Origin: Protonemura montana
Taxonomy: Eukaryota > Arthropoda > Insecta > Plecoptera > Nemouridae
Length of the DNA: 64,000 nt
Reading direction: 5' to 3'
Assembly: GCA_947568835.1 (NCBI GenBank)
Contig: OX387606.1
Span: 24,913,111-24,977,110, forward strand
Shown here: in pieces, positions 26,301 through 64,000 of the stretch
How positions within the stretch are numbered: the stretch's first letter is position 1
How the letters are laid out: every line of letters starts with the position of its first letter
Made by a program: the position numbers and the translations under genes
The notes under the pieces: model-generated
Database searches by the model: none
The model's input: the letters and a program-made list of their open reading frames with translations, nothing else
Told to the model about the DNA's origin: nothing

Positions 26301-27769
26301 TAATTAAGAATTGTTGGTCCAAGTGGTATATAACATTATTATGGAATTGAATAAAGTAATAGGTGGTAAATAAATGTAGTGACTTCCTTTTAATTAGCCG
26401 GCAGCTCTTTCCAAAGTCTGGAAGCCCGGTTCAACAAACTAGTGGAGCCCGATGTCGGAGCAATACCGTGTCAGCTCGATCTTCCAGGGGGTGGTCGTTC
26501 TTTCCCAGAAAGTTAACTGGCAGAATCCTTCTTTTAATGTCTGTATTGTAAATTAATCTGTCTGCCAAAGAAACAGACATTCCCGCGCGAGGACCTCTCG
26601 TGGATTCCAGATAAACCAGGTCCACGTGCAGACTTCTGTCTTGTTCTCAACAGCGACTGACATCTTCGACCGAACGGTTTGGTGTGGTGGAAACACAGGT
26701 TCTCGTGAGATCACTGAAGTTAAGCAACACTGCGCTGAGTCAGGTATTGGATGGGTGACCATCATAAACATGACCAGTTCTGTTCGGGAGAGAGGTTGGA
26801 GGGATGAAAGTTAAGCAACACTGCGCTGAGTCAGGTATTGGATGCGTGACCATCATACACATGACCAGTTCTGTTCGGGAGAGAGGTTGGAGGGATGAAA
26901 GTTGAGCAACACTGCGCTGAGTCAGGTATTGGATGGGTGACCATCATACACATGATCAGTTCTGTTCGGAAGAGAGGTTGGAAGGATGAAAGTTAAGCAA
27001 CACTGCGCTGAGTCAGGTATTGGATGGGCGACCATCATACACATGGTCAGTTCTGTTCGGGAGAGAGGTTGGAGGCATGCAATGGCATCTTCTCTCTCAC
27101 TTTCCTTGCGTCGAGATCGAAACCGAGCGCAGACATTCCGCGACTCGCTCGCGCGGATAATCGCACCGCGGTACTGCCAATTAGAAACGATTTCTAAAGT
27201 TTGTTGCAAAGTTGTGATACCGGCGAGTAGCAGATCCATTATGTCGAGTAATCGATAAGAAGTTGAAGAAGTTGTTAGAAGTAGTCTTTCTTCCCGGCCT
27301 GTCTCCCGCCTGCCGGCCTCGCTGGCTCAACGGGGCAATACTGGTCCCCAGCGCAGAGTTATGCTAAACTCGAGGTGACATTCAGAGGTAAAATGCCCAA
27401 AGACTCCATTAAATTGCAACTTACATATCATCATGTAATTCCCTTTCTTTTATTATATTCGCTCACCCCCCTCTCTGTCTCTTTTTCTCTCTCCTTCTAT
27501 ACATAAAACAAAAGAATGAAGGAAAAATGCGACTTGAAATTAAGTTGAAAACTTTCCCAGGAAAGTGTCTAACAAATTCATGGGCGCACTTTGTTTGAGT
27601 TATCGCCGCGAGTGAATAATTAGACTTGCAAGCACATGTAAAACCTCTAATGTTAGACAATTGAAACGTTCTTACCTTGCACGTGAAGTCTACGCCGATT
27701 GGACGCCGATAGACTCAGTGGTAGCAGCACAAGAAGCAAGCCAACCAACGCTGCTAACTTCACATCCAT
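5231..27769 (-). CDS. Secreted sushi-like protein, perhaps Hikaru genki-like (partial)
   Basis: Three exons share compatible splice phases: exon 1 27676-27769 (phase 1 end), exon 2 10176-10385 (phase 1 to phase 1), and exon 3 5231-5322 (ends phase 0 at ACG|GTAAGC and continues beyond the window). Together they give 132 residues. Residues 1-20 are a signal peptide (MDVKLAALVGLLLVLLPLSL), followed by a basic SNRRR stretch. Exon 2 reads GCPPPDVEV...NGS...MRLCKIKC...GEWHGPLC, with the CPPP, CxxxC and G-x-W-x-GP-x-C spacing of a sushi/CCP-like module. Exon 3 adds FHPLLRGCRLD and YKNLTVT. There are two N-glycosylation sequons (NGS, NLT). Known: Hikaru genki-type synaptic cleft proteins carry such a Cys-rich region with Ig/sushi modules. 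The family match is from memory of its pattern and is tentative. Intron 1 is 17.3 kb and intron 2 4.9 kb; both are repeat-filled. Confidence 0.6.
5346..5950 (-). mobile_element. 5S-derived SINE with repeated head
   Basis: Same element as at 1796-2297, reversed. The tail GTGGTGTTTAAC comes first on the plus strand, then the core with TTCCGAAGGACGG, then about three 91-bp head units, ending at a 5S-like GGTTCTCAT/GATCACCGAAG head. It lies 24 bp beyond exon 3 within intron 2 of the sushi-like gene. Confidence 0.8.
6484..6998. mobile_element. Candidate non-autonomous hAT-like element
   Basis: The left end begins CAGTGGTGTAGTC and the right end, reversed, begins CAGTAATGTAGTC: terminal inverted repeats with 11 of 13 matches and the CAG start usual for hAT elements. 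The flanking 8-mers gttatatc (6476-6483) and gtaacatc (6999-7006) match at 6 of 8 positions, the length expected of a hAT target duplication. The inside has GTATAC-rich subterminal repeats and no transposase. Confidence 0.45.
7007..7856. other. Intron 2 sequence, nothing recognised
   Basis: No exon or known repeat seen; unique-looking AT-rich sequence inside the intron of the sushi-like gene. Confidence 0.4.
7857..8935. repeat. 10-bp satellite (ctggtttgct)n
   Basis: About 108 copies of a 10-bp unit, with common variants gttcgctctg and gtttgatctg and one 2-bp phase slip near 8338. The unit lacks stop codons in several frames, which creates long open frames on both strands (up to 366 codons). 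Nothing suggests that they are translated. Confidence 0.95.
8936..10175. other. Intron 2 sequence, no exon recognised
   Basis: Contains a plus-strand open frame at 9389-9703 without recognisable similarity and an A-tract at about 10122-10142. There is a B-box-like AGTTCGAGTCCC at about 9566, with no cloverleaf that I can complete around it. Confidence 0.35.
10176..10385 (-). CDS. Exon 2 of the secreted sushi-like gene
   Basis: Acceptor TTTCACAG|AG and donor GATG|GTGAG bound 210 bases: 2 bases, 69 codons and 1 base. It carries four of the five cysteines seen so far: CPPP, the pair in LCKIKC, and GPLC. This is the exon with the recognisable domain signature. Confidence 0.7.
10386..13741. other. 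Intron 1 sequence, no exon recognised
   Basis: Inside the 17.3-kb first intron of the sushi-like gene. I see no phase 1-1 exon. A cluster of ggcgtc/gacgcc hexamers lies at about 12108-12155. Confidence 0.35.
13742..14080 (-). mobile_element. Penelope-like element terminal copy
   Basis: Member of a dispersed family that runs from GATGGTTTTTAGACTCATGT through GGGTTTTGAATGCTAAG and TTTCCCAACGTTTTGTAAC to a GGCGTTTTTT end. Element orientation is taken from the copy at 46622-47293, which still encodes protein on the minus strand. A loose target duplication (attgtg) may flank it. Confidence 0.7.
14479..14567. repeat. 9-bp repeat (gacgccacc)n
   Basis: About eight copies of gacgccacc/gacgccaac ending in GACGACGCTCG, in a CpG-rich patch. 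A short 12-bp repeat (gggcgtaagact) follows at 14648-14711. Confidence 0.85.
14733..15098. repeat. 11-bp satellite (acaaagctaag)n
   Basis: About 33 copies in the variants caaagctaaga, caaagctaagg and caaggctaagg. Blocks such as the A-type run near 14925-14985 recur, so part of it grew by segmental duplication. Confidence 0.95.
15639..16056 (-). mobile_element. Penelope-like copy with inverted (palindromic) end
   Basis: On the plus strand an inverted terminal piece comes first (15639-15800, itself a hairpin around GGGTTTTGAATGCTAAG / CTTGGCATTCAAAGCCC). A longer copy follows, ending ATGAGTCCAAAAACCATCA. Flanks gatcaatgattt (15627-15638) and gatgaatgattt (16057-16068) match at 11 of 12 bases, so the whole inverted arrangement appears to be one insertion. 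Confidence 0.75.
16632..17091 (+). mobile_element. tRNA-like SINE with five head units and inverted tail
   Basis: Five tandem 52-bp units start GTCCAAGTAGCTCAATTGG and carry an A-box-like TAGCTCAATTGGTTAGAG. Only the last unit is complete: it continues to a B box (GGGTTCGTGTCCC) and to a 3' acceptor strand TTTGGGC that pairs with GTCCAAG. The anticodon position would be CGA, but U33 is replaced by G, so this is a SINE head and no functional tRNA. The tail GGGCATCAATTTTTGAGACG plus AAT repeats lies downstream, and an inverted copy of the tail lies upstream (about 16680-16732). An exact 11-bp duplication, gctggctaaat, flanks it at 16621-16631 and 17092-17102. Confidence 0.75.
17103..18782. other. 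Intron 1 sequence, no exon recognised
   Basis: Holds a short G/T-rich run near 17845-17885 and a pyrimidine-rich repeat (tttccccattt) at about 18258-18300. Nothing else recognised. Confidence 0.35.
18783..20140. repeat. 12/13-bp satellite in two related halves
   Basis: The first part (18783-19075) repeats gggacagctgtgt and gtggacagctgt. The second (19076-20140) repeats the 12-mer gactgatgtggg with variants ggatggatgtgg and gacggatgtggg. The boundary passes through gacagatgagtgggactgat, so the halves look like successive expansions of one ancestor. The 12-bp period leaves frames open for up to 545 codons on the minus strand (His/Pro/Ser/Ile repeats), which I do not treat as a gene. Confidence 0.95.
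20141..21474. other. Intron 1 sequence, no exon recognised
   Basis: Contains a ggcgtc-type patch at about 20656-20703 and, at its right end, AATAAAGACAATTATTATT, which looks like a LINE 3' tail abutting the next SINE. No host exon identified. Confidence 0.35.
21475..21721 (-). mobile_element. 5S-SINE tail and core
   Basis: Reverse-strand copy of the SINE 3' tail (GTGGTGTTTAACGACGCACT) and core (TTCCGAAGGACGG). It ends at CCACAAATCCATGCTGTCGA, where the 36-bp array begins. The 5S head is absent. Confidence 0.8.
21722..22545. repeat. 36-bp satellite derived from SINE internal segment
   Basis: About 23 copies of a 36-bp unit starting gagaggttgataagcaaggc. Each unit is the segment found once in every full SINE of this window just inside the core. 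Between about 21857 and 22060 two variants alternate (gtcgagaggttgataagc and gtcaagaggttgataggc), giving a 72-bp higher-order repeat. The right part is nearly homogeneous. Confidence 0.95.
22546..24699. other. Intron 1 sequence, no exon recognised
   Basis: Includes a pyrimidine-rich stretch at 23700-24250 that keeps a 176-codon frame open. Its composition (runs of CT) explains the frame. No exon identified. Confidence 0.35.
24714..24904 (-). mobile_element. Short Penelope-like terminal copy with exact TSD
   Basis: A 191-bp copy from TATGATGGTTTCTAGACTC to AAAGAACCATAT, flanked by an exact 14-bp target duplication, caccagaaaaacgt (24700-24713 and 24905-24918). It keeps the best preserved ribozyme-like centre of all copies here. 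Confidence 0.85.
24823..24856 (-). ncRNA. Hammerhead-ribozyme-like core
   Basis: On the minus strand it reads CTGATGA, A, GTAAC, an 8-nt loop, GTTGC, GAAA, CGTC. CUGAUGA and GAAA are the two invariant hammerhead strands, and GTAAC/GTTGC closes stem II with one G-U pair. Penelope-like elements are known to carry hammerhead motifs in their terminal repeats. Stems I and III and the cleavage site are not resolved by eye. Other copies in the window have mutated cores (TTGATAA, TTGAAGA), so only this one could still be active. Confidence 0.5.
24919..26660. other. Intron 1 sequence, no exon recognised
   Basis: Contains ggcgtc-rich patches at about 25735-25760 and 25838-25862 and a triplicated gccgggaaa near 25415-25450. 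No exon found. Confidence 0.35.
26661..27075 (+). mobile_element. 5S-derived SINE head, four 91-bp units
   Basis: Begins with the most complete 5S-like head here (GGTTCTCGTGAGATCACTG, then GAAGTTAAGCAACACTGCGC). It continues as tandem 91-bp units with GGTGACC starts at 26754, 26845, 26936 and 27027, and stops at GGTTGGAGGCATGC without the core or tail. Confidence 0.8.
27676..27769 (-). CDS. Exon 1 (signal peptide) of the secreted sushi-like gene
   Basis: ATG at 27769 gives 31 codons plus one base before CAAG|GTAAG. The hydrophobic core LAALVGLLLVLLPL, a small-residue SAS cleavage region and a trailing RRR are typical of a secretory start. The phase-1 end matches the phase-1 start of exon 2. 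Confidence 0.7.
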
Positions 27770-31001: not shown

Positions 31002-31217
31002 AAACCTAACCTAACTTAACCGAACCTAACCTAACCAAACCTAGCCTAACCTAGCCTAACCTAACCTGACCTAACGTAACCTAACCTAACCTTAACTTAA
31101 CCTAACCTAACCTAACCTAACCTAACCTAACCTAACCTAACCTTAACCTAACCTAACCTGACCTAACCTAACCTAACCTAACCTAACCTAACCTAACCTA
31201 ACCTAACCTAACCTAAC
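31002..31217. repeat. Interstitial (CCTAA)n array
   Basis: About 42 mostly perfect CCTAA pentamers with a few variants (cttaa, cgtaa, ccgaa). TTAGG/CCTAA is the arthropod-type telomere unit, while most animals use TTAGGG. Here it is internal and short, so it may be only a microsatellite. A leading stretch of tgcataaacc-like repeats (30955-31000) merges into it. Confidence 0.9.
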
Positions 31218-31717
31218 CCAACCCGAATTTTCTTCTCACCTCGTAAAAATGGCGGCCAATCGAGGAAAACTGCATTTTCCAGCGTTCATCAGAGCGAATG
31301 AAATCTTGCTCAATGAACAACTTGGGCAAACAGCACCGGCCAACGGGTCATGGGTTCGTTCCAGGAACAGGACGGGAGGGGATTTAACATAACTTCCTCG
31401 TGAGCTCTGCTAGTCTGGTTGCGGTCGCTGCCGCACTCCGTTGTTCGGTTTAACTTAGTTGCCAACGTGACCCACCTCATCCTCAGCCGGGCATATAACG
31501 CACTCTAGTGGTGCAGTTCGAAGCTGTTGACCAAAACAAAGGTCGCTGGTCTTAACTTTATTATTATTTTCAAGCTTAGACCCGTGACACTGGCCATAGA
31601 TCAAGTTGAGTTGTGGTGGAAACGGGAGGCTGGGCTTACCACTTGATAACGGCCTGAGTCAAGCGTCAGGTAGGAGAACTAATTCAATGAGGCACGTCCA
31701 GGTAAGGCATGTGGATT
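31218..31717. other. No gene recognised
   Basis: No exon or known repeat identified between the CCTAA array and the SINE tail. Confidence 0.35.
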
Positions 31718-32556
31718 ATTATTGATTTTATTTATTTGTGGTGTTTAACATAGCACTGTTTTGACATCTGGTCATGCGGCACTGGTCTAATGGCGTCGGT
31801 GAATGAGTGGATGATGATTAACTTAACATAGTCTAGAAGAGAGGAGGGGAAACCCGGTGCCGGCACGTAGCCTACTCCTGTTGAAGACCAAGGGGACCAC
31901 CGGCTTAACGTCCCTTCCGAAGGACGGTACAACGCGAACAACAGGATTCCTCCACAAATCCATGCTGTCGAGAGGTTGATAGGCAAGGCGAGTGAAGTTG
32001 CTGTACTAACTTTCATCCCTCCAACCTCTCTCCCGAACAGAACTGGTCATGTGTATGATGGTCACCCATCCAATACCTGACCCAGCGCTGTATTGCTTAA
32101 CTTTCATCCCTCCAACCTCTCTCCCGAACAGAACTGGTCATGTGTATGATGGCCACACATCCAATACGGTGACCCAGCGCAGTGTTGCTTAACTTTCATC
32201 CCTCCAACCTCTCTCCCGAACAGAACTGGTCATGTGTATGATGGTCACCCATCCAATACCTGACCCAGTGCAGTGTTGCTTGACTTTAATCCCTCCAACC
32301 TCTCTCCCGAACAGAACTGGTCATGTGTATGATGGTCACCCATCCAATACCTGACCCAGTGCAGTGTTGCTTGACTTTAATCCCTCCAACCTCTCTCCCG
32401 AACAGAACTGGTCATGTGTATGATGGTCATCCATCCAATACCTGACTCAGCGCAGTGTTGCTTAACTTTCATCCCTCCAACCTCTCTCCCGAACAGAACT
32501 GGTCATGTGTATGATGGTCACCCATCCAATACATGACTCAGCGCAGTTTTGCTTAA
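31718..32556 (-). mobile_element. 5S-derived SINE with six or seven head units
   Basis: Tail GTGGTGTTTAACATAGCACT, core with CTTAACGTCCCTTCCGAAGG, then 91-bp head units to CTGACTCAGCGCAG. It has interrupted a LINE reading frame that resumes at 32557. Confidence 0.8.
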
Positions 32557-32835
32557 CTCTTTCAAATAGCGTCTTACAGGAACATTTTCTACACGTGACA
32601 GTTGTCGGGTCATAGCTTGCCTTCGCCATGGATCGAAGTGCTTTTATTTCTAGAATAAATTGTTGGGCAGCAATCTTTGATCGTCCCCACAGAATGATTC
32701 CGTATTGCATTCTGAATTGTATGCAAGCAAATGATTTTCCACTTGCCGTCAAGACTAACCGATTCAACCGGGTCTGGTATGGACGGTAAAACTGGTTCAA
32801 ACGCGCGGTTGTTTTCGATTCGGCCGCTTGGATCA
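32557..32835 (-). pseudogene. LINE reverse transcriptase, C-terminal fragment
   Basis: Reads about 90 codons including QYGIILWG and ALRSMAKA, ending CKTLF. This matches the YGIxLWG...KRAIR...CRxLF block found downstream of the RT palm in Jockey/CR1-type LINEs. It is cut at its 3' side by the SINE at 31718-32556, and the remainder of the element is absent. Confidence 0.65.
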
Positions 32836-44045: not shown

Positions 44046-44421
44046 GTTACAGGGGCTAGTTGTTATATATTAGGTTGTGGGTACGAAACGTTGGGAAATT
44101 AGTTGTTCTTCACTTAGCATTGAAAACCCAGTTGAAATAGTTTTTGTTAAAACTTGTGCTAAGTTTACATCAAGTAGACATGAGTCTAAAAACCATCAGA
44201 AATTAGAGTTCATTACTTTTTTTATGAAATGTTCGCTCGTTAATTTGTTGCAATTTTCAGGTTTTTATCTAAGCCTTGTCACTTTGCGACCTTCAAAATA
44301 ATCTTAATAAATTACTAACATTGAGATTTGAAGAACGTTACAAAAAAACACATTCAAAAGCAGATCTTAGAAACGTCGATTTTAGAAACTACCTTTGCTC
44401 GTTTCATATCAAACCCCAGTT

Positions 44422-44666: not shown

Positions 44667-44711
44667 AAAGCCCAGTTGTTTCTATCGCAGCTCACCAGAG
44701 TTCGCTGAACG

Positions 44712-46454
44712 ATGTTAGCTTCGTGGATCCTCGTGCTGCTAGCACTGGGTGCTGTTCGTGGCTACCCTGGAGGTGCACCCACGTCCACGTGCGGCGACAT
44801 GATGCCACGTCATGGAGGGGCGTCAGCTCAAGTCTCCAAAACCCCGTTCACTCTCAAGGCCAGCGCTGCCAAGGTCAAGCCAGGAGCCAAAGTGACAGTC
44901 ACCATTTCAGGAGGCTCTTTCAAGGGATTCATGCTCCAGGCAGTAAACGCTGTCAACAGCAAAGTGTTGGGTACCTTCACCGAGGTGCCCTCAGGGTCCA
45001 AGATGGTCAACTGTGGAACGGGGAAATCGGTAACTACTAACCACTAACGGACCTGATATTATTTAGAATTCGTTTTTTCCCGAATTACTCAAAAACAGTT
45101 ATTGATTTGCGGTGTTTAACGACGCACTGATTTGATATCTGGCAATGCGGCACTGGTCTAATGGCGTGGGTGAACGAATGGATGATGATGAGCCTAGCCT
45201 AGCCTAGAAGGGATAAGGAGAAATTCGGTGCCGGCATGTAGCCTACTTCTGTCGAAGATCAAGGGGACCACCGGCTTAACGTCCCTTCCGAAGGACGGTA
45301 CAACGCGAACAACAGGATTCCTCCACAAATCAATGCTGTCGAGAGGTTGATAAGCAAGGCGAGTGAAGTTGCTGTACTAACTTTCATCCCTCCAACCTCT
45401 CTCCCAAACAGAACTAGTCTTGTGTATGATGGTCACCCATCCAATACCTGACTCAGCGCAGTGTTGCTTAACTTTCATCCCTCTAACCTCTCTCGCGAAC
45501 AGAACTGCTCATGTGTATGATGGTCACCCATCCAATACCTGACCCAGCACAGTGTTGCTTAACTTTCATCCCTCCAACCTCTCTCCCGAACAGAACTGGT
45601 CATGTGTATGATGGTCACCCATCCAATATCTGACCCAGCGCAGTGTTGCTTAACTTTTATCCCTCCAACCTCTCCCCCGAACAGAACTGGTTATGTGTAT
45701 GATGGTCACCCATCCAATACCTGACTCAGCGCAGTGTTGCTTAACTTTCATCCCTCCAACCTCTCTCCAGAACAGAACTGGTCATGTGTATGATGGTCAC
45801 CCATCCAATACCTGACCCAGCGCAGTGTTGCTTAACTTTCATCCCTCCAACCTCTCTCCCGTACAGAACTGGTCATGTGTATGATGGTCACCCATCCAAT
45901 ACCTGACCCAGCGCAGTGTTGCTTAACTTTCATCCCTCCAACCTCTCTCCCGAACAGAACTGGTCATGTGTATGATGGTCACCCATCCAATACCTGACCC
46001 AGCGCAGTGTTGCTTAACTTTCATCCCTCCAACCTCTCTCCCGAACAGAACTGGTCATGTGTATGATGGTCACCCATCCAATACCTGACCCAGCGCAGTG
46101 TTGCTTAACTTTCATCCCTCCAACCTCTCTCCCGAACAGAACTGCTCATGTGTATGATGGTTTTCGAGTGTCTTTTCTTCCCACAGAACGCAGTGACCCA
46201 CAGCTCTGATGGTCAGAAATCGGCAGCAGCGCTGGTCTGGAAGGCTGGGGCTAATATGACCGTTGGAACGAAGATTATCTTCAGGTATTTGTGGATCTAC
46301 CGTCGGAACAGAGTTATAAGTTTTAACAAAGCTTTGAGTGCAGTCTCGTATCCTAGCAACTTACGAGTGTTTACTTCACAGGGCGACCGTTCTTCAGGAC
46401 TTTCAAACTTTCTGGACTGAAGTTGATTCGTCGAAAGTTTTAGTTGCAAAGTAA
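44712..46454 (+). CDS. Secreted single Reeler-domain protein
   Basis: Exons 44712-45029, 46187-46284 and 46382-46454 join in phase (TCG|GTAACT, CACAG|AAC, TTCAG|GTATTT, CACAG|GGCG) to give 162 residues. Residues 1-17 (MLASWILVLLALGAVRG) form a signal peptide. The mature part begins YPGGAPTSTCGDMMPRH and carries the Reeler pattern: conserved early Cys, PGAKVTVTISG, FKGFMLQA, the second Cys in MVNCGTG, then AVTHSSDGQKS, LVWKAG and ATVLQDFQTFW. The protein ends shortly after the domain, as in the short defence-type Reeler proteins of insects and molluscs; there is no membrane anchor or DOMON domain. Role: presumably extracellular, perhaps immune-related, inferred from the family. Intron 1 contains a 5S-SINE array. 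ATTAAA at 46524 may be the poly(A) signal. Confidence 0.9.
45108..46160 (-). mobile_element. 5S-derived SINE with nine 91-bp head units
   Basis: Tail (GCGGTGTTTAACGACGCACT), core (CTTAACGTCCCTTCCGAAGG), then nine head units with starts 91 bp apart (about 45382 to 46110). The last unit stops 26 bp before the acceptor of Reeler exon 2. Confidence 0.85.
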
Positions 46455-52451: not shown

Positions 52452-52790
52452 CCATCATACACATGACCAGTTCTGTTCGGGAGAGAGGTTGGAGGGATGA
52501 AAGTTAAGCAACACTACGCTGAGTCAGGTATTGGATGGTTGACCATCATACACATGACCAGTTCTGTTCGGGAGAGAGGTTGGAGGGAGGAAAGTTAAGC
52601 AACACTGCGCTGAGTCAGGTATTGGATGGTTGACCATCATACACATGACCAGTTCTGTTCGGGAGAGAGGTTGGAGGGATGAAAGTTAAGCAACACTGCG
52701 CTGGGCCAGGTATTGGATGGGTGATCATCATACACATGACCAGTTCTGTTCGGGAGATAGGTTGGAGGGATGAAAGTTAAGCAACACTGG
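52452..52790. repeat. Four 91-bp SINE head units without core
   Basis: Same unit as in the other arrays, from CCATCATACACATGACCAG to AAGTTAAGCAACACTGG. Neither the 5' 5S start nor the core is present. Confidence 0.85.
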
Positions 52791-53138
52791 AATACATTCA
52801 CTGGAAAACATTCGGGAATACAGGAAACAGGAAACAGTAAAATAACGTAGAGTAATAAACAGGAAGAGAGTACAACCTGATGCACAATTCCATTCTGTCA
52901 ATAATCAAGCCGTTATAAAACCAGGACGTTGCACTTGCCCGACCATTGTTGCAAGTTTGCATTTGACATTCCTGAAAACGCCTGGTCACGTGGTTTACTT
53001 CGTGTTGCTATGGCAGGCCTAAGACCTTTTCATCACAATCACAATCTCATTCAATTCAGTTTCAGATTCATTTTTCTAAACGAAATTAACTTGCAAACTT
53101 GCGTTCTATATTTTTTTTCTTTGCAAAGCCTACACGTG

Positions 53139-53472
53139 ATGGTTTTTAGACTCATGTCCACTTGATCTAAACTTAGCACTAGTTTTAACAAAAACTATTT
53201 AGGGTTTTGAATGCTAAGTGAAGAACAACTAAATTTCCCAAACGTTTCGTAACTTGTACCTGTTACTTTATCAAGGGTAAGAGCAGTCCTGACAATTTTC
53301 CAATAACAAAACCACAAAAAATTATAACAATTACCAAGTTCAATCTTCCCAAATGCATCTAAATAAAATAATCAGGATCAATAACTCAAAAACTTATGTA
53401 TTTTGTATTTTCTGAAATAAAATCCCGAACAAATTGGCGTTTTTTACCAACTAACCAATTATCTGTATGGAA
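53139..53472 (-). mobile_element. Penelope-like terminal copy with TSD
   Basis: A 334-bp copy flanked by aagcctacacgtg (53126-53138) and aagccttcacgtg (53473-53485), 12 of 13 bases equal. It ends 160 bp from the stop codon of the neighbouring repeat-protein gene. Confidence 0.8.
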
Positions 53473-53635
53473 AAGCCTTCACGTGGTAACATCTAATAAA
53501 GCGACAGTGGTTTTATGCGTAGAATTTAATAGCAATTGCAAAGCATACAGCAAATCATGAAATGCAAATTCATCATAGGGATAACAGTCCCAGTTCTCTT
53601 CTGAAAAACACCCTGTTCTGATTGGCCATTATCTA

Positions 53636-56600
53636 TTACTTCCCGAAGAGGAATCGGTTCGGGGTCGCGTTAGATCCAAGTCTAGCACTGCCACCTAGAC
53701 TTGCACTGCCACCTAGACTTGCACTGCCACCTAGACTTGCACTGCCACCTAGACTTGCACTGCCACCTAGACTTGCACTGCCACCTAGACTTCCACGGCC
53801 TCCGAGAGAGTTGAGTAGAGAGGTTAGCCTGTTGACAACGTTTTGACCAAGAGCCAACACGGCGCTAGCAGGCATCATCAGCTGGGTTCCTGCAGAACCG
53901 CTTGCCGTTCCGCCTAGAAGACCACTAAATGGTGAAGAGGTGGAGGTTGGAGTAGCCTTGGTGGTGGCTGGAGCTTGTTTAGTGGTCGAAGTAGCCTTAG
54001 GAGTAGTTGGAGTAGCCTTGGTGGTGGTCGAAGTAGCCTTAGGAGTGGTCGAAGTAGCCTTAGGAGTGGTCGAAGTAGCCTTAGGAGTAGTTGGAGTAGC
54101 CTTAGCGGTGGTCGAAGTAGCCTTAGGAGTAGTTGGAGTAGCCTTAGCGGTGGTCAAAGTAGACTGAGGAGTAGTCGAAGTAGCCATAGTGGTGGTCGAA
54201 GTAGCCTTAGGAGTAGTTGTAGTAGCCTTAGCGGTGGTTGGAGTAGCCTTGGTGGTGGCTGGAGCTTCTGTAGTGGTCGAAGTCGCCTTAGGAGTGGTCG
54301 AAGTAGCTTTAGGAGTAGTTGGAGTAGCCTTAGCGGTGGTTGGAGTAGCCATGGTGGTGGCTGGCTCTTCCTGGACAGCATCTTCCTGGACAGCATCTTC
54401 CTGGGCAGGCTCTTCCTGGGCAGGCTCTTCCTGGGCAAGATCTTCCTGGGCAGGCTCTTCCTGAGCAAGATCTTCCTGGGCAGGCTCTTCCTGGGCAGAC
54501 TCTTCCTGGACAGCATCTTCCTGGGCAGCATCTTCCTGGACGGGCTCTTCCTGGGCAGGATCTTCCTGGGCAGGCTCTTCCTGGGTCAGATCTTCCTGGG
54601 CAGCATCTTCCTGGACAAGATCTTCCTGGGCAGGCTCTTCCTGGGCAGGCTCTTCCTGGACAAGATCTTCCTGGACAGGCTCTTCCTGGGCAAGATCTTC
54701 CTGGACAGGCTCTTCCTGGGCAGGCTCTTCCTGGGCAAGATCTTCCTGGGCAGGCTCTTCCTGAGCAAGATCTTCCTGGGCAGGCTCTTCCTGGGCAGCA
54801 TCTTCCTGGGCAAGATCTTCCTGGGCAGCATCTTCCTGGGCAATATCTTCCTGGGCAGGCTCTTCCTGGACACCATCTTCCTGGGCAGCATCTTCCTGGG
54901 CAAGATCTTCCTGGGCAAGATCTTCCTGGGAAAGATCTTCCTGGACAAGATCTTCCTGGGCAAGATCTTCCTGGGCAGGCTCTTCCTGGGCAGACTCTTC
55001 CTGGGCAAGATCTTCCTGGACAGGCTCTTCCTGGGCAAGATCTTCCTGGGCAGGCTCTTCCTGGGCAGGCTCTTCCTGGGCAAGATCTTCCTGGGCAGGC
55101 TCTTCCTGAGCAATATCTTCCCGGGCAGCATCTTCCTGGGAAGGCTCTTCCTGGGCAGCATCTTCCTGGGCAATATCTTCCTGGGCAGGCTCTTCCTGGG
55201 CAAGATCTTCCTGGGCAGGCTCTTCCTGGGCAAGATCTTCCTGGGCAGGCTCTTCCTGGGCAGCATCTTCCTGGGCAACATCTTCCTGGGCAAGATCTTC
55301 CTGGTCAAGATCTTCCTGGGCAAGATCTTCCTGGACAGACTCTTCCTGCATCAACGACTCGCCTTCTGATTGGTCGTCTTCAGGCGCTGAGTCGCCGAGC
55401 TCTACCTGCGACTCAGACTCGAACCCGGTCTCTCCCTGCACCAGGGGCTCATTCTTTGCAAGGTCAGCATCGACATCAGCCGACGCCCGCAAGGACGCAC
55501 CTCCAACAGTGGCGACATCACGGGCCATGTTGACAGCAGCGTCGACAGCGCCACGAGCCTGGGCGGCGACTTCTTTAACTACGTTGAGTCCAGCATTAGC
55601 TAAACCGAGGCCAGCATTAGCGGCGCTAGCAGCGGCATCAATGCCGGCAATCACTGAAGATGTCTTTAGGTCCAAGCCAGCCTTGGCTGCAGATCCCGCC
55701 GTCGCCAGGCCGGAGGAGATAGCCGTGTTTGCAGATTCCAAACCTCGAGTCACAGACGACTTGGCCATGTTGGCAACACCGCCGATCAGGGATTGGCCGA
55801 GACCTCCAAGACCTTCAAAACCTCCCAAAGATCCAGTGGAACCTCCCACGTTGCCTTCTAGTTTGAATTCCAGCGGAAAGCCATGGATGACCTGGTAATG
55901 GAATCAAAGAAATGAAACTTTCTTATATGCTAAGAATTTTCACAAATTCGGTGGCATATCCGACAGTGATTAACAATACTTAAAACTAACTTATTTCTGA
56001 TGGTTTTTAGACTCATGTCTACTTGATTTATCCTTAGCACTAGTTTTACAAAAACTATTTCAACTGGGTTTTGAATGCTAATTAAAGGAAACTAAATTTA
56101 GTAGCCCTTTACTTAGCATTCAAAACCCAGTTCAAATAGTTTTTCTTATAACTTATTTCTAACACTCTATTTATAAATAATTTACATGATTTCATTTTCT
56201 CTATTGCATTCTGAGGCAGCCCATTCTACTCAGCTGCAACTCTGTCCACCAACAATGAGTCCCCGTTTTAAATCCTTCTTCCAAATATTTTCCTCTTCAT
56301 CTTTTGACAGTGGTCTTTCCTCTTCTTATAATTGTTTGTTTCCTATCTGTGTCCGATTTCCTGCCAAGCCTTGTCCCCTCTGTATGCTTTGCAGATTGCA
56401 GCAAATCTTGCCACTTTCCTCCTCTTATTCAGTGGGTCTCTTGCAGTTTCTAAAGCAATACCCTCAGATATAATGTGTGGAGGAAAAACGATTTATTTAA
56501 AAATCGACAGCTATCCAAATATATGGTTGACCATTAAGGTCTAGCTTACTAATCTATATTTTAATACAATTTGTTATTAATAATATTTATGATTATGGTT

Positions 56601-57065
56601 ATGGTAATCATGAAGTGTTGTTATATATATGGTTACCAGAACGTACCACAGGTTACCGTTGAGTGTGCAGGTTCTAGGTAGAGGTTCTAGGTTCATAGGT
56701 AAAACAGTTACAACACAAGCTGTTCCCTGGGCGTTTTAGAGCGTTTAAAGGTGTTTGTAAGCTTTTAAAAGCTTTTAAAATACATTTGTAGGCGTAATTA
56801 AATCTCTGAAAGGCGTTGACAGGCGTTTTAACGCGTTGAAAATGCGTTCATTGGCGTAGTTAGGCGTAAATAGGTGCTTCAAAGCGTTTAAAAGCGTTCC
56901 AAAGGTGATTGTGGACGCTGTGAAGCGTTTGAAAGGTGTTTCAACCTTTAAATCTCTTAAAAAAGCTGGGTAACCCAAATACCAAATCGAAACAACGCGC
57001 TTTGATCCGCGTCTTACCTGGACAGCTAGAGCCGTGAGAAGCAACAGAGTCGCTTTGTACGCCAT
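53636..57065 (-). CDS. Secreted repeat protein with QED pentads and mucin-like part
   Basis: Exon 1 57018-57065 encodes MAYKATLLLLTALAVQ, a signal peptide ending at CAG|GTAAG. Exon 2 53636-55891 starts after TTACCAG| in phase 0 with VIHGFPLEFKLEGN. Total 767 residues. Order: Gly-rich start; Ala-rich amphipathic-looking segment (about 50-155); acidic linker; about 65 pentapeptides of the type AQEDL, AQEEP or AQEDA (about 197-525); Thr/Ala/Lys/Pro repeats of the TTxKATPT type, probably O-glycosylated (about 527-668); MMPASA...LLNSLGG; six SLGGSA hexads; end PNRFLFGK. No cysteines are evident. It is a paralogue of the gene at 61050-62810 by its ends and exon plan. Function unknown; the very acidic array suggests cation binding or a matrix/adhesive role (inference). 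I did not find a named family. The frame is intact through some 1.6 kb of repeats, which supports selection. Confidence 0.85.
55999..56148. mobile_element. Small palindromic Penelope-like copy in intron
   Basis: 150 bp: GATGGTTTTTAGACTCATGT..., then inverted arms GGGTTTTGAATGCTAAT / CTTAGCATTCAAAACCC. An exact 12-bp duplication, taacttatttct, flanks it (55987-55998 and 56149-56160). It lies in intron 1 of the QED-repeat gene. Confidence 0.8.
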
Positions 57066-57136
57066 CTCTGTTGTAAATCGGGTACCAGTCGAGAGCAGCG
57101 CGCGGAAGTTGATGGCCTGTTAGTGGCAGCCGCTCG

Positions 57137-57146
57137 TTTATATAAA
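57137..57146 (-). promoter_or_regulatory. TATA box of the QED-repeat gene
   Basis: TTTATATAAA lies 72 bp upstream of the ATG, leaving a 5' UTR of about 45 bp if transcription starts 25-30 bp downstream of the box. Confidence 0.6.
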
Positions 57147-57433
57147 GTGCATTCGCCCGCTGACAAATGGACCAATCAGCGGCGAGCACACGTGAACGCG
57201 ATGCAGTTAAATGCATGTGGAACAACTGTGTCAACAAAGCTCACTTTGATGCAGTTTGCAATCGTTAGCTAATTCACTTAATTGAAATTTAATTTGACAA
57301 TTATGCCGTTTAATTGCATGTTGTTTTTTATCCAGAATGTTCCAGTCGATTTAATTTGATGATAGCCTGCAATGTTTGCTCGAATAAGTGTATGTTTGGC
57401 AATATAGGTTAGGGTCATTCGTTTGACAGAGTA

Positions 57434-58195
57434 AATTTTGTTGAAACTGTTGCCATGACGACTTCCAATCAAATGCAGTGAAATTCAGATGTTTCTGTGA
57501 GCTAGAGATCCAACTTAAAGTTCAAAATTTTGTTGAAACTGTTGCCATGACGACTTCCAATCACATGCAGTGAAATTCAGATGTTTCTGTGAGCTAGAGA
57601 TCCAACTTATAGTTGAAAATTTTGTTGAAACTGTTGCCATGACGACTTCCAATCACGTGCAGTGAAATTCAGATGTTTCTGTGAGCTAAAGATCAAACTT
57701 ACAGTTCAAAATTTTGTTGAAACTGTTGCCATGACGACTTCCAATCACATGGAGGGAAATTCAGATGTTTCTGTGAGCTAGAGATCCAACTTAAAGTTCA
57801 AAATTTTGTTGAAACTGTTGCCATGACGACTGCCAATCACATGGAGTGAAATTCAGATGTTTCTGTGAGCTAGAGATCCAACTTATAGTTGAACATTTTG
57901 TTGAAACTGTTGCCATGACGACTTCCAATCACATGCAGTGAAATTCAGATGTTTCTATGAGCTAGAGATTCAACTTATAGTTGAACATTTTGTTGAAACT
58001 GTTGCCATGACGACTTCCAATCACATGGAGTGAAATTCAGATGTTTCTGTGAGCTAGAGATCCAACTTATAGTTGAACATTTTGTTGAAACTGTTGCCAT
58101 GACGACTTCCAATCACATGCAGTGAAATTCAGATGTTTCTGTGAGCTAGAGATCCAACTTACAGTTGAACATTTTGTTGAAACTGTTGCCATGAC
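57434..58195. repeat. 92-bp satellite, eight units
   Basis: Each unit contains TTTTGTTGAAACTGTTGCCA, TGACGACTTCCAATCACATG and TTTCTGTGAGCTAGAGATC. Unit starts are 92 bp apart and the copies differ at a few positions each. It begins about 290 bp upstream of the TATA box of the QED-repeat gene and shares no sequence with the SINE-derived arrays. Confidence 0.9.
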
Positions 58196-58492
58196 AGTTG
58201 ACAGTTGACATGAATGAAAACATTTTTCTATTAAATATTCTTTCAGCCGATGTCAGGATTCATATTCTTCAAGTTGTTTGGTAAAATATTGTTAAGTTTT
58301 GAGCCTAAGCTACGAGGGTTACTTCTTTTACAGTTTTTAACTCTAATGTATATTTTTCTTTGCGTGTTCGTGAAACATTTCATTGTAATTGAGTTACACT
58401 TTTGTTTTGAACTTTGTGCGTAATTACTGCGTGAATATAAATGCAAGGCAGACTTCATATTGAAAAGCGTGTGAGTAGAGGTTTGCACGAGT

Positions 58493-58665
58493 AGATGAAA
58501 TCTGATTTAAATTGCAAACGCTTGCAATGCGCGGGGTATTTTTATTATTATCAACACTATAATAATATCCGTTAGGGCATCAATTTTTGAGACGGTTCTC
58601 TGTGTTGTTAATAATAAAATACCCCGCGCATTGCAAGCGTTTGCAATTTAAATCAGATTTCATCT
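58493..58665. repeat. Long foldback repeat
   Basis: Arms 58493-58557 and 58602-58665 are almost perfect inverted copies (65 and 64 nt) around a 44-nt loop. The loop holds AGGGCATCAATTTTTGAGAC, the 3' part of the tRNA-like SINE at 16632-17091, and the arms match the sequence next to that SINE's inverted tail. Confidence 0.85.
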
Positions 58666-59029
58666 AATGATTTGTCTATGTTGATAAACAAGCCGGCTAT
58701 CGATTCTCTAGTTCGTGTTAACTGCTTCGTTCGCTTGGTTTGACCTTGCTAAGGTGACTGGTATCGGTGGTCAATGGTCATGGGTTGTGTCGTCCCCAAG
58801 CAGTCTTAACTTCCCTTCCTTGATTTCGGTTGGTAGCTCGTTTATAAACAATATCAATAAGCGTACAATATGAAGATGGGTCTAAACACCATCATAGAAT
58901 GGAGATATGTTCAAACCTTGAGGCAGTCCCATTTCCAGATGAGTCTCTTCCGATAAATGGCTTTGAACTTTGCTGGTCACTTGCAATTTGCGTTCTGATA
59001 GATACCTAAGTAGGTTCTTACCCAACTAT

Positions 59030-59290
59030 TTATTTAGCTTGTTTAGCTATTAAAAAAGTAACAAGGTTACATTCTACTTTTCTTTTCATCCTCTTTAAAT
59101 TTATCATACAATTTAGCCTTAAATTAACTTACAGTTTTTGTATTCCTAGTTTTCTTTGATAATTTATTATAATCTTTAGTTCCTTTAGTAAATACTGTGT
59201 TTAATTTAGAAGACTTAACAAAGATATTAGTCCTATTCCTTAGTATTGTGATTAAGGATGCGATTTACTAACTTAACCTTTGAATTTTAT
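59030..59290 (-). mobile_element. LINE 3' fragment (RT C-terminus)
   Basis: Minus-strand frames read FTKGTKDYNKLSK and FKAKLYDKFKEDEKK, matching the block near the end of CR1/L2-like LINE proteins also seen at 4774-5082. Stops interrupt it. Confidence 0.5.
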
Positions 59291-60063
59291 CTGATGAGAG
59301 GTTTGTCTAGGTGCTAAGGGTTGAAAAAGCACTACGGGTTATTTCTGATGGGAGTTTTTTTTCTAAGCATCCAAGCTGAAAAACGCGGACTTTGCCAATT
59401 TCTGCTCGGACAGCCGTGGACACAGGAGATTTTGACGTGACTACGTGTTAAAGCGCATTATATAGGGAGGCATGTACGGATTTGCTCTCCAAAATGGCAA
59501 ATGTGTAACAAGCCCTACAGCCTACAGGAAACAAAGTACAGAATGCGACTTATTATCATTCAATAGTTCAGACAATTCTCTAAAAGTATTTTTTTTTTAT
59601 TTTTGATAAACTAAATATTGGAGGCGTTAGAGGAGGCGGCGTTTTTAGCACTCGTCATTACACTAATGCAAAATAAAATATATATATCGCAAGATGACAC
59701 TTCCATCCCAATCTGTAAAATCCTTCAGCTTGTAAATTAGATATGAAAACACAACTCAAATAAAGAGAGATGTAAAACTTGCATGTGAAGTTTGGTCAGT
59801 ACTGTAGTTGACCTACGTGGCTACGCGGTAGTTGAACGTAGTCAAGCTTTAATATCGGCCGTATCAATAAGATACAGCTGCACCAGGTGTTTTTTTACAG
59901 TCCAAATGCAATTATTAAATCTTCCGAATCGATGGTAAAACATAATTGAAGGGTAAATGCCCCTTTAAATACGGAGGTACTAACCCTAACATAATTTTAT
60001 GGGTAAAAACAAAAAAAATTAACTCTATTTTTCTTATAATATCTACAAAATTTAACTTCTTTT

Positions 60064-60590
60064 TCATCTTTCTAACAGATACCATTTTTTTTTAGGTTTT
60101 TTTTTGGGTAAGCTACCCCCTAATATGTAAAGAAGGTTTAATTTGTGCAGGTGAATTTCACGATTAAACTGAATCAAACGCCTTGGGAAAGTCATGATAT
60201 ATTCAAGTGGTAGATTTTCATGTTCTAGCGCACTTGCCGCGTACGCACCCGTGTTGCCGGTCATTTGCAATTTTACCTCGGAATTATTTGGAATTCGGTC
60301 CCAAAACTTTTCTAGTATCTATCTGTGCTAGTATACCAAAATTTGGGCAATTGGTCGATAATCAGCATACATTTGTCCTGTCTCCGGATTGAAAGCGCGA
60401 TCACTTTAGACTTTTTTATAGCACTTGGGAAGAATCTTTGGGTAAATAAGCTTTTGATAAAGTATATCAAGGGCTCATGTAGATTTATTCCTACTCGCTT
60501 TAAAAGATTACATGGAATTTCATCACAAACAGATGATATTTTGTTACTTATTTCTTCAATTATTTTAACCAATGTAACCAATGTCTGCGA
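60064..60590 (-). pseudogene. LINE reverse transcriptase fragment, frameshifted
   Basis: Pieces in shifting frames: CDEIPCNLLKRVG...PLIYFIKSLFTQRFFPSAIKKSKVIAL-type RT segments, a YRPI motif at about 60355, DFPKAFDSV (RT motif A region) at about 60180 and REIHLHKLNLL. Order and spacing fit a non-LTR RT of Jockey/CR1 type. Several indels and stops show that it is dead. Confidence 0.7.
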
Positions 60591-60905
60591 TCGAAGAGGG
60601 ATGGGAGATTCCAGATCGCGACCAAGAGGTTAAGCTTAGAGAGAATCTGTGTGGTCTGGTATTACACTACTTTTTAACTCCGAGTTAAGCTTCCAACTCT
60701 CAGAATCAGCTGATTTAAACTGCTTGTGATTGATTGTTGCTATGACAATTGATTTATCTCCAACAAAACCCACTCTCGAGGCGCTATTTCTTCAAAACTC
60801 CAAAGCAAATTGCGACATCGGGTGTGATCGCTTGAAAACGGGAACTTTTCAACTCTGTCCAGGAAACCAATGATCACACAAAATAAATGCCATATCAAGA
60901 ATATT

Positions 60906-60911
60906 TTTATT
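60906..60911 (-). terminator. Possible poly(A) signal of the Ala-rich gene
   Basis: AATAAA on the minus strand, about 140 bp after the stop codon at 61050. Confidence 0.4.
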
Positions 60912-61049
60912 TTGATCCATACCAGCTTTGAAACACATTAACCTCAAAAAAGACTAAATTTACTTACAATTATAAACCAAATTCATGTCATTTCTTAAAT
61001 TCCAATTTCAACAATAGAACTCTGGATGTGCAAGAGGATTGCTTCAGAT

Positions 61050-62810
61050 TTATTTGCCGAGACTCAATCGAGGCACGCGAACATTGACCCCCGCGCTACC
61101 TCCGCCTCCAAGACTGTTCAGAAGCCCAGCAGTTTTGTCAACCATTCCTTTGCCAGCATCTAGAACCGCTTTGCCAGCAGCAATACCTGCATTGGCAGGC
61201 GCCATGACCATATCCCCAAGACCGGCAGTATTGGCAGAACCACTAATGGCAAAACCACTGTCAGAACCGCTGTCAGAACTGCTGTCAGAATCGCTGGTGG
61301 CCACATCGTTGTTGTCCGTAGAATCAGCGCCAGCATTGACCGATCCATCGACTGAAACTCCGCCATTCTGTGCTGAGCTCGCGGCGTTTTCAGCGGCATT
61401 CTTAGCTGAAGAGACAGCATCCAGTCCTTGGTTGATTGCGCCATCGGCAAGATCCTTGCCAGTGCTAATTGCACCACCGGCAAGATCAAAGCCGCTGTTA
61501 ATTGCATTTTCAGCGGCATCCTTGGCTGAAGAGACAGCACCTAGTCCCTGGCTAATTGCACCATCAAGAGCATTTTTACCGTTGTTAATTGCATTTTCGG
61601 CAGAAGCCTTGGCATTGCCAATTGCATTTTCAGCGGCATCCTTGGCTGAAGAGACAGCACCGAGTCCCTGGCTAATTGCGCCATCAAGAGCACCTTTACC
61701 ACTGCCAATTGCATTTTGAGCAGCATCTTTGACAACTTCAATGTCGGACTGACCACGGCTAATGACGTCTTGAGCCACCTGCAGACCAGAGTTGGCCAAT
61801 CCCAAGCCTGCGTTAGCGGCGTCTGCAGCCATGCCTACACCAGCACTGACAGCTTTTAGAGCGAGGTTTTTCTTTAAAGTCGCCAAGTTCTTAGCTGCAC
61901 TGGCGGCGTTTCCAGCGAGTTTCAAGCCAGCGTTTGCTCCTGCTGCTATTGCGTCGATTCCCTTTTCGGCCATCGCTCCCTTCATGGCTAGGTCAGCGTT
62001 GACTGCAGCTTTGGCGGCATCTAAGGCCGTGGAGACAGCTGATTGTGCAGCACCGATGCCGTCTGTGACCCTTGCCTTGGCTGCATCGGCGGCACCGTTC
62101 ACCAGGGATTGGCCAAGTCCTCCCGAACCTCCCAATCCTCCCAATCCTCCCATGCCAATCGATCCTCCCAAGCCTCCCGATCCTGATCCCGAGGTAGATG
62201 CAGAACCTCCAGCACTGCCCGATACGGACAATCCCAGGGGGGAAGCGTGCAGTACCTTAACGGGGAAAGAAATTGCAAATTAAATATGTTACAAGAAAGC
62301 AATGACTTGAGTTTAGCTTGCTAAAATGTTACTACAATGCCACTGTAATTACTGCAGATTGCAGAAAAGCTGATGACATCGAGGTGTTTTGCAGCAAAGT
62401 ATAATTTACAGGAGTACACTTGCCCCTTCGGTTTTGAATTCCGAGTAGGTAAGAGTGAAGAAAAAGATCTACATGAAAATAACAGTCAATGCTAACTAAA
62501 AAACAATTGTCAAACTGATAAATGAATTTAATCAATTTGTGACAGCTGGAAATTGCTTTGCCTAAGGCACATTTGATGCACAAAGTGAAAACAATATTTT
62601 ATATCAACTCAGCTGATTAGTTGACATCTCTTGTCGTCCATTCATTCTTCTTCTCAAGTTACAAAGTATCATTATATTATTATCATTATATCACCTTACC
62701 ACCGTTACTTAATCGTACAATTTTGAGAGAAAAGATTAAATTCAATTCAAACTAAGAAATCTTACTTGTACAATCGCTGCAGCGACCAGCAGAGCTGTTT
62801 TAAAAAACAT
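61050..62810 (-). CDS. Secreted Ala/Gly-rich helical repeat protein
   Basis: Exon 1 62766-62810 encodes MFFKTALLVAAAIVQ before CAA|GTAAG. Exon 2 61050-62255 begins VLHASPLGLSVSG after GTTAAG| in phase 0. Total 416 residues. Order: signal peptide; Ser/Gly-rich start; GGLGQSLVNGAA, as in the paralogue; a long Ala-rich region with repeats of the type ALDGAISQGLGAVSSAKDAA followed by ENAI (about 45 residues, three imperfect copies), helical and LEA-like in look; Ser/Asp stretch (TSDSDSSSDSGSDSG); end MAPANAG...LLNSLGGGGS...RLSLGK. It lacks cysteines and transmembrane segments beyond the signal. Exon plan, the V-[IL]-H mature start and the C-terminal block tie it to the gene at 53636-57065. Role unknown; a secreted structural or coating protein is the simplest inference. 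Confidence 0.85.
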
Positions 62811-62896
62811 CTCAGATATTGTGTTGGTGATTCGAAGCCGGGAAAGGAACAGAAACTCGCTGATGGTCTGTGTGCCTTAGTTTGGGATTGTCGATC

Positions 62897-62905
62897 ATTT
62901 ATATA
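62897..62905 (-). promoter_or_regulatory. TATA box of the Ala-rich gene
   Basis: TATATAAAT on the minus strand, 87 bp upstream of the ATG; implies a 5' UTR of about 60 bp. Confidence 0.55.
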
Positions 62906-63267
62906 CCGTTATCCATTGCACAATATTCATCTAATAGTTCAATTATCCGAGCCATTTTTGCAGCGTTTGCAGGTTAAACTGCACCCTTGTCAATAATTTA
63001 ATGCACAATTATATTTACTGTCCTCGTTAACTTTGTGAGAATAAATATATTATTTTATGTGAGTAATCTGTAGCAATTAACTAAATTCACAAAGTGTTTC
63101 CTAATGATATACATTGCACAATCTTGATTAGTTTAAACAATTAGCTGCAATCATTAACTGAATATTAAAAATATAACAGCGGAAACAACTGGCAACTTAC
63201 ACTTTTTACTTTTCTAATAACTGATGCAACATGCAGAGTTTTCACCTATGTCAACACTTGTCAAAGT

Positions 63268-63276
63268 CTATATATG
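63268..63276 (+). promoter_or_regulatory. TATA box of the divergent secreted-protein gene
   Basis: CTATATATG, 74 bp upstream of the ATG at 63350; implies a 5' UTR of about 50 bp. It lies about 360 bp from the opposing TATA box of the Ala-rich gene. Confidence 0.55.
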
Positions 63277-63349
63277 AAATCAACACTAACAACCACAATC
63301 ATTTCAAAGTCTTCATTATTCCATTTACTATTTCACAGATTTTGGCAAA

Positions 63350-64000
63350 ATGTCACACAAGTGTATTGTGATTGCTTTAGCAATTATTTTTGCTGTAAAT
63401 GTAAGTAGCTTCGATAAGATGATTGTTTTTAGACTCATGTCTACTTGATCTAAACTTAGCACTAGTTTTAACAAAAACTATTTCAACTGGGTTTTGAATG
63501 CTAAGTGAAGAACAACTAAATTTCCCAACGTTTCGTAACTTGTACCTGTTACTTTATCAAGGGTAAGAGCAGTCCTGACAATTTTCTGATAACAAAATGT
63601 TCCCTGGAACTATCACTTAGCACTTCAAACCAGTGCTGAATTTATTACCAATCTTTCTACAATTTTCTTCCAGGATTCCGTCTCGTCAGCATCGATAAAC
63701 GCCGACGAAATAAGCGATTTTGTACCGCTCCCAACGCGCCTTACATTTCTCGACGACAATTCAATCTCACGAGCCAAACGGCAAGCCGCTTTGGACGTAT
63801 CTGCCGAGGTTGATCCTCCAGCGGTGGCAGCTCCGTTACCAGAAGCTCAACCCGCCACGAAAGCAACGACTGCTTTACCAACCACAACAAAACCAACACC
63901 CGACATCGCGGGGCCTGGCTTCGAAGTGATCGACCTGTTATCGCAAGCTGGAGTCCGGATCGGGCAGCGTTTGAACGCCAGACTTGACAAGCTGCAGTCG
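63350..64000 (+). CDS. Secreted protein, third cluster member (3' partial)
   Basis: Exon 1 63350-63400 encodes MSHKCIVIALAIIFAVN before AAT|GTAAGT. Exon 2 starts at 63674 after TTCCAG| in phase 0 and stays open for 109 codons to the window end. The mature part begins DSVSSASINADEISDFVPLP. A dibasic RAKRQ about 37 residues in could be a furin-type cleavage site, making the start a propeptide. A Pro/Thr/Lys-rich segment (KATTALPTTTKPTP) resembles the mucin-like segment of the QED-repeat protein, and FEVIDLLSQAGVRIGQRLN recalls its C-terminal LGQNVVNRLTSLL. It shares the signal exon/phase-0 intron/TATA plan, so kinship with the other two is likely but not proven. A Penelope-like copy sits in the intron. 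Confidence 0.75.
63419..63596 (-). mobile_element. Penelope-like fragment in intron of cluster gene 3
   Basis: From GATGATTGTTTTTAGACTC to TTTCTGATAACAAAA; covers most of the 273-bp intron. The ribozyme-like core is decayed (TTGATAAAG). Confidence 0.7.

Follow-up and report, generated by a model that had tools for sequence, protein, structure and literature searches.

Candidate gland structural proteins with related ends and unlike middles in a cluster of two-exon genes of Protonemura montana

In a 64,000-nt stretch of the genome of Protonemura montana (Plecoptera; assembly GCA_947568835.1, contig OX387606.1, positions 24,913,111 to 24,977,110 of the forward strand), hereafter the window, we identified three adjacent two-exon genes, of which A and B are read from the minus strand and C from the plus strand. 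Genes A and B are true paralogues by alignment, with related ends and unlike middles. We propose that an insect gland secretes their products as structural proteins (silk, glue or a protective coat) whose ends would associate and whose middle would set the properties of the material; this reading has, in our judgement, an even chance of being right. The cluster itself is real, and it is plausibly a variant of insect secretory structural genes.

Gene models and the shared plan

Both strands of positions 53000-64000 were read, with GT/AG splicing. Genes A, B and C each have a TATA box, a first exon of 15-17 codons, a phase-0 intron and one long second exon. In gene A (all features on the minus strand), exon 1 (57018..57065; 16 codons, MAYKATLLLLTALAVQ) ends at a phase-0 GTAAG donor and is followed by an intron of 1126 bp (55892..57017; guanine-cytosine (GC) content 0.357) and by exon 2 (53636..55891; 751 codons and a stop); a poly(A)-type signal, ATTAAA, lies at 53525..53530, ~100 nt past the stop codon. 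Gene B, on the same strand, consists of exon 1 (62766..62810; 15 codons, MFFKTALLVAAAIVQ) and exon 2 (61050..62255; 401 codons and a stop), with the signal AATAAA at 60906..60911, ~140 nt past the stop. Genes B and C diverge from an intergenic region of 539 bp (62811..63349), which holds the TATA box of B at 62905 (minus) and that of C at 63269 (plus). Exon 1 of gene C (63350..63400, plus; 17 codons, MSHKCIVIALAIIFAVN) is followed by exon 2 that starts at 63674 and runs past the window end at 64000 to 64141, so that the first 109 of its 156 codons are inside the window; its remainder was completed from the same genome. Spliced as modelled, the genes would encode proteins of 767 aa (A, 79 kDa), 416 aa (B, 39 kDa) and 173 aa (C). 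The GC content of the second exons is 0.53-0.58, and that of the introns and of the DNA between the genes is 0.32-0.36.

The gene plan in three neighbours, as given in the preliminary description of this DNA (TATA box, signal-peptide exon of 15-17 codons, phase-0 intron, long exon), was borne out by the gene models and by a scan of the window with 100 kb on each side (264 kb). The scan looked for a TATA box, an ATG 30-130 nt further on, a hydrophobic exon of 12-25 codons ending at a GT donor and, within 2 kb, an acceptor opening at least 100 codons. It returned seven rows at five places, namely A, B, C and two doubtful places of unlike appearance; four second-order Markov copies of the sequence, used as controls, returned none. 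As the scan criteria were fixed after the three genes were known, the result speaks for the rarity of the plan and is no independent discovery. The long frames of A and of B each exceeded those in all 300 dinucleotide-Markov copies; the frame length of the unique 5′ part of A, taken by itself, was within chance.

The intron of gene A holds copies of an interspersed repeat with a GTTTTTAGACTCATGTC core that recurs across the window, at 13748, 53142, 56003 and 63425 (plus) and at 44177 and 44644 (minus); two of these copies are intronic, in A and C. Just upstream of gene A, at 57433-58195, a 92-bp satellite is repeated about eight times.

Related ends, in-frame arrays and predicted helices

The alignment of A and B, which covers non-repeat sequence of two separate loci, gave a ratio of nonsynonymous to synonymous substitution rates (dN/dS) of 0.36. 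By sequence, A and B are old duplicates with replaced middles. Protein C has no similarity to A or B detectable by sequence comparison and shares the gene plan alone. The preliminary description was thus correct in taking only two of the three neighbours for clear paralogues and in calling the middles of those two entirely different. It had also placed the motif V-[IL]-H at the mature N-terminus; the motif fits better as the end of the signal peptide. Under the −3,−1 rule of signal peptide cleavage, a cut after the motif, VIHG/FPL in A and VLHA/SPL in B, is more likely, and this would place the intron of both genes about four codons ahead of the cleavage site.

Limited searches of the same genome (258,480,905 bases in 34 contigs) brought up no further relatives: with B exon 2 (E ≤0.001), the A N-terminal domain and the in-window part of C exon 2 (E ≤1) and the last 70 residues of B (E ≤10) as queries, nothing besides the three genes was found. 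The last query also missed the matching C-terminal block of A, which means that the search was too insensitive to exclude distant relatives.

Exon 2 of gene A encodes, in order, the end of the signal peptide, a Gly-rich lead, a helical domain, pentapeptides of QE[DE] type, a mucin-like block, a C-terminal helix, SASLGG repeats and the terminus ...NRFLFGK. The pentapeptides, (A/V)-Q-E-(D/E)-x, are encoded by a 15-nt in-frame tandem array (54359..55348, minus); 65 were counted, with Gln kept in 64 and the acidic pair in all 65. The mucin-like array (53981..54360, minus; 21-nt in-frame units, TTPKATS-type) yields a Thr/Pro/Lys block of 140 residues, 46% of them Thr, and the SASLGG array (53685..53800, minus) has 18-nt in-frame units. 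Protein A has no Cys, an isoelectric point of 4.05, and 17.5% Ala, 10.2% Thr and 7.3% Ser. In B, exon 2 encodes a GGLGQSL lead, a long amphipathic helical region, 40-residue repeats, a Ser/Asp-rich spacer of 25 residues, a C-terminal helix with LLNSLGG and the terminus ...VPRLSLGK. The repeats correspond to a tandem array at 61387..61717 (minus; 120 nt, 2.8 copies by Tandem Repeats Finder); 40 residues make 11 turns at 99 degrees per residue. Protein B also has no Cys, with 22.1% Ala, 17% Gly, 11.8% Ser and 2.4% Thr.

The window is full of minisatellites carrying long open frames. Tandem arrays inside the A and B exons had periods divisible by three in 7 of 7 cases (6 of 6 when rows that overlap are counted as one) vs 8 or 9 of 39 arrays, by hand count, elsewhere in the window (Fisher 0.0001 and 0.0006, respectively). 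All exon arrays being in frame, local minisatellite activity has here been subject to a filter for frame.

Hydrophobicity along the helical domains has a period that peaks at 99.0-99.4 degrees per residue. In four long stretches (A 50-145; B 65-180, 180-310 and 65-310), not one of 2000 shuffles was as high; the power at the peak was 32.9 in B 65-310 (shuffles at most 12.8) and 12.1 in A 50-145 (shuffles at most 9.4). At the heptad period of 102.86 degrees the power fell to noise level (0.9 vs 31.8 at 99 degrees in B 65-310; 1.7 vs 11.4 in A), and a heptad coiled coil was rejected for both proteins. In B the hydrophobic face consists mostly of Ala, Gly, Val and Ile, and in A of Ala, Val and Gly; on the opposite side Asn, Ser, Gly and Asp abound, joined by Thr in A.

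Single-sequence AlphaFold2 models (exon-2 numbering) place helices in B at residues 44-166, 172-297 and 343-383, with a mean predicted local distance difference test score of 66, and in A at 23-73, 80-147 and 675-696, with a mean of 42; A residues 148-674 (527 residues) are predicted to be without structure. Both proteins are therefore predicted to follow the order helix, low-complexity middle, helix, and with confidence at these levels the shared order of helices weighs more than any single coordinate. A Foldseek comparison of the B model with PDB gave 650 matches at E ≤10 and none at 0.001 or better; the 50 of the 650 matches that were listed are mostly long helical or coiled-coil proteins.

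The family had been left nameless in the preliminary description, which would have been refuted if the conserved ends belonged to a known, unrelated family; no known family was found above cut-off for the conserved ends in Pfam, NCBIfam, PHROGs or PDB. In Pfam, A matched no family, nor did C (in-window part and full exon 2), and B had nothing above cut-off, the nearest being Perilipin (PF03036; E 0.0023, 17.5 of 33 bits) and AF-4 (9.3 of 26.9 bits); no cuticle or chitin-binding domain was found in any of the three. In NCBIfam, A and C had no match and B just a lipoprotein model (22.5 of 100 bits). PHROGs gave none for A and B. Among PDB sequences, the best E-value was 0.11 for B and 0.42 for C, with nothing for A up to E 1, none of these being significant. 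Protein B, the only one compared with IMG/VR and phage records, had no match there. Strings of letters of the three proteins were looked for in the literature, with most subscription papers and all supplements out of reach, and none belonging to them was found. The GGLGQSL lead was also tried as an amphipathic lipid packing sensor (ALPS) helix against the GMAP-210 sequence given in PMC2744908; this candidate was rejected, as the resemblance did not exceed chance (57 of 1000 shuffles in A and 84 of 1000 in B).

Possible roles and comparison with known secretory systems

An order of helix, soft middle and helix suggests chains that join through their ends and have a swelling middle; their simplest use would be in a gel, a glue or a coat. 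In such proteins, the signal peptide would be encoded across the phase-0 intron, and the mature chain would start with a Gly/Ser-rich lead, continue through an amphipathic helical domain rich in Ala, a middle that changes fast and a second short helix, and finish in a Gly-rich tail. The helical ends may pack together or at an interface, tying chains, while an acidic or glycosylated middle would retain water and ions. With its 65 acidic Gln-Glu pentapeptides and Thr/Pro mucin-like block, A could serve as the gel-forming linker, and B, whose middle consists of the 40-residue helical repeats and the Ser/Asp spacer, as a helix-rich partner. In-frame turnover of minisatellites would rewrite the middles as the ends stay constrained. 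The preliminary description had spoken of a rapidly evolving extracellular family, and the paralogous ends, unlike middles and hydrophobic N-terminal signals support this for A and B; its suggestion of matrix, adhesive or mucus fits as well, and can be sharpened to putative helical ends around a soft middle.

The closest likeness among described systems is to the caddisfly cadhesins (Caz), a clustered, heterogeneous set of mostly two-exon genes in which, according to PMC11092239, a short first exon encodes part of the signal peptide and the second exon is long and often repetitive; the same text gives this exon arrangement for the Ala-rich pseudofibroins. Genes A and B resemble both groups in being clustered and two-exon, with a short signal-peptide exon and a long repetitive one, and resemble the pseudofibroins in Ala content. 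The two-exon layout of gene C also matches the cadhesin plan, without a tandem array in its in-window part. As far as descriptions allow a comparison, A and B differ from both groups in having a common helical domain and a conserved C-terminal block. We thus regard A and B as working like cadhesins and pseudofibroins by analogy and not as members of either group.

Moth fibroin heavy chain is described as a two-exon gene too, in which a tiny first exon lies inside the signal peptide and the second is long and repetitive (PMC9684489), a plan shared by A and B; the moth protein has 486 kDa and Gly/Ala repeats, in contrast to the 79 and 39 kDa and the predicted helices of A and B. Bee, ant and hornet silks are reported as paralogous sets of Ala-rich helical proteins with Ala and Ser in the core of heptad coiled coils (PMC3032785, PMC12284834, PMC6403662). 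Proteins A and B are likewise Ala-rich, predicted helical and paralogous, but their heptad period is at noise level. Bee silk genes are single-exon.

Several observations weigh against the gland structural reading. Since C is unrelated in sequence, the cluster may partly be a chance neighbourhood, and the promoter words common to A, B and C (two seven-mers vs a null mean of 1.2) are none beyond chance. Proteins A and B are below the Ser/Thr content of most cadhesins; in the table of the cadhesin paper (PMC11092239), Ser or Thr exceeds 20% in 11 of the 15 rows of Group B. Periodicity is weak in the short C-terminal stretches (176, 12 and 115 of 2000 shuffles were as high for B, A and C, respectively), and in B 65-180 the helical peak (11.8) is accompanied by another at 163 degrees that is almost as high (9.6). 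Confidence is very low for the A model and moderate for that of B. The few silent differences within the A pentapeptide array point to recent expansion, from which constraint there is indistinguishable.

The main rival, on the unlikely side in our estimate, is that A and B are surface-active proteins that attach through their amphipathic helices to lipid or to the air-water interface, as they might in a foam, a surfactant or a lipid-carrying secretion. It ranks first because the helices are non-heptad and because spittlebug foam proteins are described in PMC12911473 as mostly long-helical with a proposed surfactant role; A and B are like them, by description only, in being related, predicted secreted and long-helical. 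The 99-degree period agrees with this rival, as do the best 18-residue hydrophobic moments (0.51 in A with net charge +1, 0.47 in B with 0 and 0.53 in C with +3) and the sub-threshold Perilipin match of B. Perilipin-type helices are, like those here, non-heptad and amphipathic; B differs from perilipins in scoring below the family cut-off, having a signal peptide and being Gly-rich. The failed likeness of GGLGQSL to ALPS argues against a surfactant, for which the mucin- or polyacid-like middle of A would also be superfluous.

Insect egg-coat, seminal, gut-lining and cuticle proteins are secreted, fast-evolving and often clustered, so that A, B and C could belong to another extracellular covering of this kind and be low-complexity by chance. 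We hold this improbable; the Pfam result for cuticle and chitin-binding domains speaks against it and leaves egg-coat and seminal proteins untouched. Somewhat more doubtful still is the idea that the genes encode precursors of amidated bioactive peptides, with tails in Gly or Gly-Lys trimmed and amidated and the long bodies acting as carriers. All three proteins do end in G or GK (A in FLFGK, B in LSLGK, C in YVLG, with the full C end ...LRLPLYVLG), and C has a convertase-type RAKR site (residues 50-53) and a basic last stretch (net charge ~+3.8 over 22 residues). Yet the RAKR site is 120 residues from the C end, no dibasic site was seen by eye shortly before the A or B tail, and for mere carriers the bodies are needlessly large and conserved; moreover, B is 17% Gly, and the Gly ends were noticed after the fact. 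These ends are compatible with alpha-amidation and provide a lead only. Least probable by far is that A and B are not genes at all, their frames being made by minisatellites. The abundance of such arrays with long open frames in the window and the chance-level length of the non-repeat part of A would suit it, but two loci that align over non-repeat sequence at the dN/dS given above, both with a TATA box, a signal-peptide exon and splice sites, speak against it.

Surrounding sequence and significance

Outside the cluster, the window contains five arrays of a 91-bp satellite (5616-5888, 26717-27079, 32007-32558, 45378-46161 and 52452-52789), whose unit matches, by eye, part of a degenerate 5S rRNA; 5S-like copies are found at 1789, 5816 and 26669. 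The satellite appears to be a 5S-derived repeat amplified in tandem. A 52-bp tandem array at 16769-17049, probably a tRNA-derived short interspersed nuclear element, is built from the 5′ portion of a tRNA-like sequence and ends in a GGGCATCAATTTTTGAGACG tail; the same 20-mer has an exact copy at 58575 and an inverted one at 16707. Inside the chromosome, at 31003-31223, AACCT (= TTAGG, the common insect telomere unit) is repeated about 44 times. This array agrees with the indication of an insect genome given by at least 129 matches to PF02949, the family of insect odorant receptors; 14 control genomes, a weak control, gave no match. A perfect 51-bp inverted repeat with arms 73 nt apart spans 58492-58666. 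The open frame 44709-45044, hydrophobic at its start and carrying a Reeler domain (Pfam 6.9e-18), probably represents exon 1 of a further secreted protein. Downstream neighbours include a Bmt2-like methyltransferase (L003:5489-6526; Pfam 1.4e-9) and a frame (L003:2981-3379) that resembles a ZAD-type zinc-binding domain by eye, with no Pfam match.

New here are the 99-degree, non-heptad period of the conserved helical domain, the helix-middle-helix order predicted for A and B and the Gly or Gly-Lys ends of all three proteins. A bolder version, which we consider improbable, is a class of extracellular material, specific to an insect lineage, in which non-heptad amphipathic helices (40-residue, 11-turn period) at the chain ends take the place of beta-sheet fibroin or heptad coiled coils and in-frame minisatellites exchange the acidic or mucin-like middles; the C-termini of the three neighbours, including the unrelated C, may be alpha-amidated as well. 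Such amidation, if real, would be uncommon among structural polymers. If the gland structural reading is right, insects have one more secretory material that is identified by its gene plan and not by its sequence, and the cluster illustrates how genes of this sort escape profile libraries. With conserved ends that associate, set clearly apart from middles that can be exchanged, this material would be a test case for how minisatellites rewrite the soft portion of a biomaterial under selection that holds the ends, and possibly a template for Cys-free helical gels.

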